Below are positions 36,509 through 36,906 of a stretch of DNA of 37,562 bases, in pieces. This DNA comes from a virus. The stretch lies in the IMG/VR virus record IMGVR_UViG_3300020394_001883, positions 1 to 37,562 of that record, one strand, 5' to 3'. The notes under the pieces are model-generated. The model was given only the letters and a program-made list of their open reading frames with translations, did not search any database and had not been told where the DNA came from. How positions within the stretch are numbered: the stretch's first letter is position 1; each line of letters starts with the position of its first letter. The position numbers and the translations under genes are program-made.

Positions 36509-36906
36509 TGGTGGAGGTGGCGGGAGTCGAACCCGCGTCCTGAGTGCCTTCAGTCAGGCACGTCTACAAGTTTAGTTAATTTTTTTTAAAGTTATGATAT
36601 TAACATCCAACTTCTTGTTTCATTTATTTACAGTTTGTGATACAAGTAAACGTTTTCTGTTTTGCAGATCGATGACCCCTTATCCTATTTATCTGCGTCA
36701 AAAGGTAAGAGGTTAGCAGGTTAAGCTGCTAAGGCGAGCTTACGACTCTTGAAGCCGAAACGCTTTGCAGCGAGACGGTTCTTGAAACCGAGAGCTCTAA
36801 CACGGTTTTTAGCGCCATGTAAAGCTTTGCACATTTATAACGAAGCCAAGTGCATCTCCGACTTGCGGTGCATGAATCCAACATCAGTCGAATCCAGAAC
36901 ACCCCC
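36509..36906 (-). ncRNA. ssrA: One-piece tmRNA
   Basis: 398 nt with an encoded CCA. Acceptor stem GGGGGUG pairs with CACCUCC, and the T-arm is GCGGG-UUCGACU-CCCGC. The conserved 5' GUUCUGGAUUCGACUGAUG and the UUAGCAGCUUAACCUGCUAA stem around the tag stop are present. The tag frame ends K-L-A-L-A-A-stop. Counting from the likely resume codon GCU (AKN...) gives about 30 residues with 10 Lys/Arg and no acidic residue. It works with host SmpB to rescue stalled ribosomes. Promoter at 36930-36958; a 17-nt 5' leader should be removed by RNase P. Confidence 0.95.

Follow-up and report, generated by a model that had tools for sequence, protein, structure and literature searches.

A long cationic tag in a phage tmRNA: selection as a peptide and apparent exchange for an acidic tag in sister phages

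The stretch of DNA analyzed here (the window) covers a virus record of 37.6 kb (37,562 nt) that consists of a single contig. It contains a complete one-piece tmRNA gene, specifying a 398-nt molecule, that was matched by cmscan to Rfam family RF00023 over the full model (positions 1–374) with a score of 137.2 bits (E = 8e-54; gathering score, 47). The match coincides exactly with the segment in which an earlier, sequence-only reading had placed a phage tmRNA (Table 1), and since it is colinear and full-length, a two-piece permuted tmRNA is ruled out. In an alignment of nine related tmRNAs, the alanine-identity G3.U acceptor pair is kept in all nine and 16 base pairs have changed on both sides with retention of the tmRNA fold. 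The MFE z-score of the RNA is −4.3 relative to shuffled sequences. Elements similar to the predicted promoter lie upstream of the tmRNAs of several relatives. Between promoter and tmRNA, a motif like GTTCTTTGAAAA, which to our eye resembles the rRNA boxA antitermination element, precedes most tmRNAs of the clade, with both tag types. Judging from the IMG sample numbers, these phages are probably marine.

Table 1. Positions of the tmRNA gene and associated features in the window
Feature	Position	Strand	Basis
One-piece tmRNA gene (ssrA), 3′ CCA encoded	36509..36906	-	RF00023, covariation, MFE z-score
Predicted sigma-70-like promoter of the tmRNA, TTGACT-17-TATACT	36930..36958	-	10/12 consensus matches; best site of the region
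Conserved leader GTTCTTTGAAAA, adjoining tmRNA 5′ end	36912..36923	-	Similar motif in clade
Resume codon GGC (Gly), tmRNA position 91	36814..36816	-	UA + 3 nt rule (PMC2481249)
Tag coding sequence, 31 codons, GAKNRVRALGFKNRLAAKRFGFKSRKLALAA, net +10	36724..36816	-	Peptide-level purifying selection, 11 relatives
Tag stop TAA	36721..36723	-	TAG also occurs in basic-tag relatives, and TGA besides TAA in acidic-tag ones
First repeat GGTTTCAAGAACCGT (GFKNR)	36775..36789	-	Self-alignment above codon shuffles in 295/300
Second repeat GGCTTCAAGAGTCGT (GFKSR), 33 nt beyond first	36742..36756	-	Self-alignment; L098
Putative exchangeable core (approximate), tmRNA positions about 35–250, including tag	36657..36872	-	Homology to L093/L005 sister-phage pair

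The resume codon of the E. coli tmRNA is found four nucleotides past A86, with 11 nt between PK1 and the coding sequence (PMC2481249). The window reads AAGCUUUACAU followed by GGC, 11 nt past PK1, with the UA correctly placed and the spacing as in E. coli, and the resume context (UACAU, then GGC) is retained in 16 of 18 related tmRNAs. Application of the E. coli rule thus makes GGC, at 36816, the first tag codon, rather than one much nearer the stop, and the tag therefore has 31 encoded residues, or 32 once the alanine carried by the charged tmRNA is counted. The sequence-only reading had the tag sequence right as written but gave its length as 30; one further residue belongs at the N terminus. 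Its description of the composition holds, as the tag contains 10 Lys/Arg residues and neither Asp nor Glu, and ends in a ClpXP-type LALAA.

Is this frame maintained as a peptide? Relatives of the tag were collected by pattern scans of IMG/VR and of a bacterial and archaeal collection with a single genome for each species. The resulting basic-tag family comprises 11 tmRNAs, that of the window included; 10 of the 11 tags are 31 or 32 residues long with a net charge of +10 or +11, and LALAA directly precedes the stop in every one. Among the codons of the family are 23 synonymous and 20 nonsynonymous variants, against an expected 32.4 ± 2.7 nonsynonymous (P < 1e-4, an approximate value, as variants were treated as independent under a simple random-substitution null, although the effect is large). 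Variable sites fall at codon positions 1, 2 and 3 in the numbers 10, 6 and 22, and Lys-to-Arg exchanges in L036 and L099 preserve the charge. Because variation across the 11 tmRNAs is mostly synonymous, the basic tag is a real coding sequence, and the comparison of related phages, which the sequence-only reading had proposed, bears out a long cationic tag selected as a peptide within a functional-looking phage tmRNA. Searches of the tag peptides against Pfam, PHROGs and PDB gave nothing significant and so do not point directly to any binding partner.

The tag also contains the internal near-duplication that had been noticed in the sequence-only reading. The signal is modest but beyond chance: the self-alignment score is reached by 5 of 300 codon-shuffled sequences and, at the peptide level, by 36 of 2000. 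Independent evidence comes from one relative, L098, with a short-form tmRNA (5039–5423, minus strand) whose 20-residue tag, GNKNRVRAFGFKSRELALAA, has a net charge of +4 and lacks exactly one 33-nt unit, that between the two GFK repeats. Recent growth of the tag, which the duplication had been taken to suggest, does not follow. The duplicated form is common to 10 of the 11 divergent relatives, and the sole short form nests, though weakly supported, within the long-tag group. A unit may thus have been lost at least as readily as recently gained. The short form of L098 is possibly a deletion.

The same 5′ pattern also brought up tmRNAs whose scaffold is very similar but whose tag differs, namely GEGYDSIEELLEAAREEYDNLVQFEQAEELEMVA and variants of it. 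These seven tmRNAs encode acidic tags of 34 residues, with net charges of −9 to −11 and the ending EMVA, and they too are under purifying selection (8 nonsynonymous variants versus 13.6 ± 1.6 expected; P = 0.0015). Both tag types occur in one uncultured phage clade, whose terminases are about 24% identical to the nearest cultured terminases. Two of its members, G002 with a basic tag and G010 with an acidic tag, have terminases that are 95.2% identical, share many proteins with the window's phage, and can be aligned over 5.6 kb around the tmRNA at 86% identity. Within this alignment, the segment directly before the tag is at 0.73 identity, the tag itself at 0.45 and the segment directly after it at 0.47, whereupon the value climbs back to 0.92. 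In tmRNA coordinates, the sister phages (L093/L005 pair) have identities of 0.45–0.47 at positions 90–250 and 0.73 at positions 35–90, compared to 0.79–0.92 in their flanking DNA. As only the tag and the adjoining downstream segment drop to 45–47% between sisters, the tag module appears to have been exchanged. Moreover, a tmRNA tree computed with the tag removed still separates the basic and acidic types with 99% support, so the tmRNA core travels with the tag. We read this as exchange of the tmRNA core within one phage clade, with the tag apparently serving as an interchangeable functional element.

In most respects, the window's molecule is an ordinary bacterial one-piece tmRNA (RF00023), with the tRNA-like domain, acceptor G.U pair, PK1, resume codon, tag reading frame, downstream pseudoknot region and CCA end. 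It departs from these in its 31-residue tag of net charge +10; in the tmRNA database, tags of 10 residues are the most frequent, and very short tags have also been reported (PMC11915505). A parallel in proteolysis is offered by the extended tags of Mycoplasma and Mesoplasma, which are likewise unusual in length and sequence and belong to a special proteolytic regime, degradation by Lon (PMC8138137, PMC3985003). However, Mycoplasma tags end in AFA (PMC3985003), lack ALAA, and occur in hosts without ClpXP, whereas LALAA closes the strongly cationic tag of the window.

Complete tmRNAs are known from other phage genomes, with 402 of 18,146 phage genomes encoding one (PMC9004378), and from huge phages (PMC7162821) and mycobacteriophages (PMC4131195) such as Bxz1 and Wildcat; the Wildcat tmRNA is highly expressed during lytic growth (PMC7474061). 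The tags of Streptomyces phages, as annotated in their records, are short (ANSKFAFALAA and ANSNVASAYALAA), unlike that of the window. Some huge phages also encode SmpB (PMC7162821), which was not found in the records of the window's phage. The marine methylophage Melnitz and the pelagimyophages share a marine phage tmRNA with the window's probably marine phage, but the Melnitz tmRNA is two-piece and permuted (PMC9004378) where ours is one-piece and colinear. Phage DS6A carries a tmRNA-derived RNA reduced to the tRNA-like domain and devoid of a tag frame; an RNA of this kind inhibits tmRNA (PMC4131195, PMC11915505). A tag-less decoy of this type is ruled out for the window's 398-nt molecule with its long, selected 31-codon frame. 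In the part of the literature covered, we found no report of long tags of extreme charge or of tag exchange between sister phages.

Our scan retrieved further viral tmRNAs with long tags, namely AEDAEVNALLAQAEYIFNNADEFVGVEEMEMVA (L009 group), AEDNTSALLAEATYIINNADEFLVEEVYEMAA (L068), AESFDYAPSVAEADAFLEATGFVDAELLAA (L012 group) and GKIKNVVNAIFGRGSRNESFVGGELALAA (L022), and Rfam confirmed L009, L012, L022 and L068 as tmRNAs. Most of the remaining tags in the scan have roughly 9–17 residues, and among the long tags seen, a strongly cationic one is found in the window's family only. Going by these sequences, long tags are a recurring phage feature. The virus tmRNAs L009, L025, L046, L053, L080, L092, L068, L012, L072, L094, L097 and L038 have tags of 30–33 residues, mostly acidic, and some of these resemble the clade's acidic family in their EMVA or EMAA ends. 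In L022, a related phage, a dense tRNA array (78–5563) with a group I intron (RF00028, 65 bits) adjoins the long-tag tmRNA.

Scanning one genome each from 84,980 bacterial and archaeal species for the tag pattern revealed neither a bacterial chromosome nor a host tmRNA with the tag. The sole match is a phage-like contig in a Halobacteriovorax bin. In that bin, the tmRNA on a 1.4-Mb, chromosomal contig encodes the short tag ANNDFAPAMAA, seven terminase matches (one 87% identical to the terminase of G002) lie on different contigs, and the GC content of the tag contig deviates from the rest. Assignment of Halobacteriovorax as host was rejected on the grounds of the seven terminase matches and the deviating GC content; as the bin carries phage contigs, it says little about the host, and we treat the tag contig as a phage carried in it. 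The metagenome-assembled genome (L102, L117, L118; PBIO01000024.1) contains three different tmRNAs, the third on another contig. Among cultured phages, a DNA search matched only the T-arm end, and tblastn with the two tag types as queries yielded nothing meaningful among 50,697 phage records. No SmpB, ClpP or SspB was found in the records of the clade's phages, which may be incomplete; on these records, the tmRNA would need host partners.

How might such a tmRNA be used? The comparisons directly support the tmRNA architecture, a resume codon placed by rule, peptide selection, charge conservation and core exchange. Building on these, the model that we favor, at about even confidence, is one of ribosome rescue and degradation in which a swappable charged module tunes how host proteases or adaptors handle the tagged protein. 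The tmRNA would be expressed from the promoter upstream of it, alanylated by the host, and brought to stalled ribosomes with host SmpB. In infected cells, it would free ribosomes that stall on broken messages, adding alanine and the 31-residue tag to the unfinished proteins. ClpX and ClpA read a C-terminal ALAA (PMC3985003), and LALAA would serve as a degradation signal of the usual ClpXP type. The preceding 26 residues would form a cationic module, selected as a peptide, which together with the tmRNA core could be swapped for the acidic 34-residue module in sister phages. Such a charged module may be a long handle that most likely sets which protease or adaptor handles the protein, and how well, by analogy with the extended Mycoplasma tags that are matched to Lon; the M. 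florum tag, of another length and sequence, is handled by that protease (PMC8138137). Different modules would, on this model, suit different hosts or proteolytic conditions. A point against the model is the EMVA ending of the acidic tags, since both tags may not be served by a single protease route.

One alternative, which we consider unlikely, is that the charged module alters the fate of tagged proteins in ways other than degradation, with a cationic tag tethering them to RNA, DNA or ribosomes, or causing their aggregation, and an acidic tag doing the opposite. This would fit the conservation of extreme charge of both signs in tags with little else in common, and binding of nucleic acid by the tag is possible. 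However, retention of LALAA throughout the basic family is as expected for degradation, and with opposite charges in sister phages, a shared requirement to bind nucleic acid is unlikely. The equally long acidic tag in sister phages likewise argues against positive charge being generally needed. Membrane binding, raised in the sequence-only reading, is weakened because the cationic tag gives no amphipathic-helix signal (maximum moment 0.53, versus 0.65 for shuffles), and an amphipathic membrane peptide was set aside on this basis.

It is also conceivable, if quite unlikely, that the long tag evades host adaptors or counter-measures, such as an SspB-like adaptor or a sensor of ssrA tags, and that an arms race drives tag diversity and swapping. 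The exchange of tag cores between sister phages and the different long tags of several other phage groups are what such a race might produce, but selection on the peptide inside each family is purifying rather than diversifying, and we know of no interacting host factor.

That the extra sequence is selected as RNA, through additional hairpins in the tag region, with the peptide as a mere by-product, is very unlikely. Small hairpins are possible at both repeats in some folds (CGGUU-UCAAG-AACCG and CGGCU-UCAAG-AGUCG), yet folding of the tag region is little above that of shuffles (z from −0.9 to −1.9), variation is concentrated at third codon positions and is synonymous far beyond chance, and L098 differs by one in-frame unit. 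The shuffle-like folding and synonymous variation led us to reject an explanation by RNA structure alone. An independent small protein gene overlapping the tmRNA is scarcely credible and was rejected too: the in-frame ATG six codons upstream of the tag (MCKALHGAKNRV...) occurs in the window and three close relatives, but is missing from the other basic-tag relatives and from those with acidic tags, while the resume context is kept.

The tags of tmRNAs are usually seen as short hydrophobic degrons. The presence of conserved tags of +10 and −10 in the same gene of sister phages suggests that a tag can instead be a selected, swappable module, and opens to direct test why phages carry a tmRNA of their own, be it just for ribosome rescue or for control over the fate of tagged proteins. 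A bolder version, to us a real possibility if a minority one, is that exchangeable modules of opposite, extreme charge reprogram the protease, location or partner of all proteins tagged in infected cells, so that the phage tmRNA would be a host-takeover device and not a spare rescue RNA.

ARAGORN misses the basic-tag tmRNA of both the window and L003 and shortens the acidic tag of L004 and L005. Published surveys of phage tmRNAs that rely on ARAGORN may therefore undercount or misreport genes with long tags.

Finally, we note other features of these genomes. On the minus strand of the window, the gene for a nucleoside deoxyribosyltransferase-like protein (PF15891; 32556–33092), 56–94% identical clade-wide, ranks among the best conserved in the vicinity of the tmRNA. 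Three proteins that are paralogues of one another, encoded in tandem or close by at 16187–17340 and 19158–19949 (minus strand), have homologues in several related phages. A manA RNA motif lies at 25032–25242 on the minus strand of the window (RF01745, 70.8 bits), and a second copy of this motif is present in the relative L134 (2003–2203; 76.7 bits).
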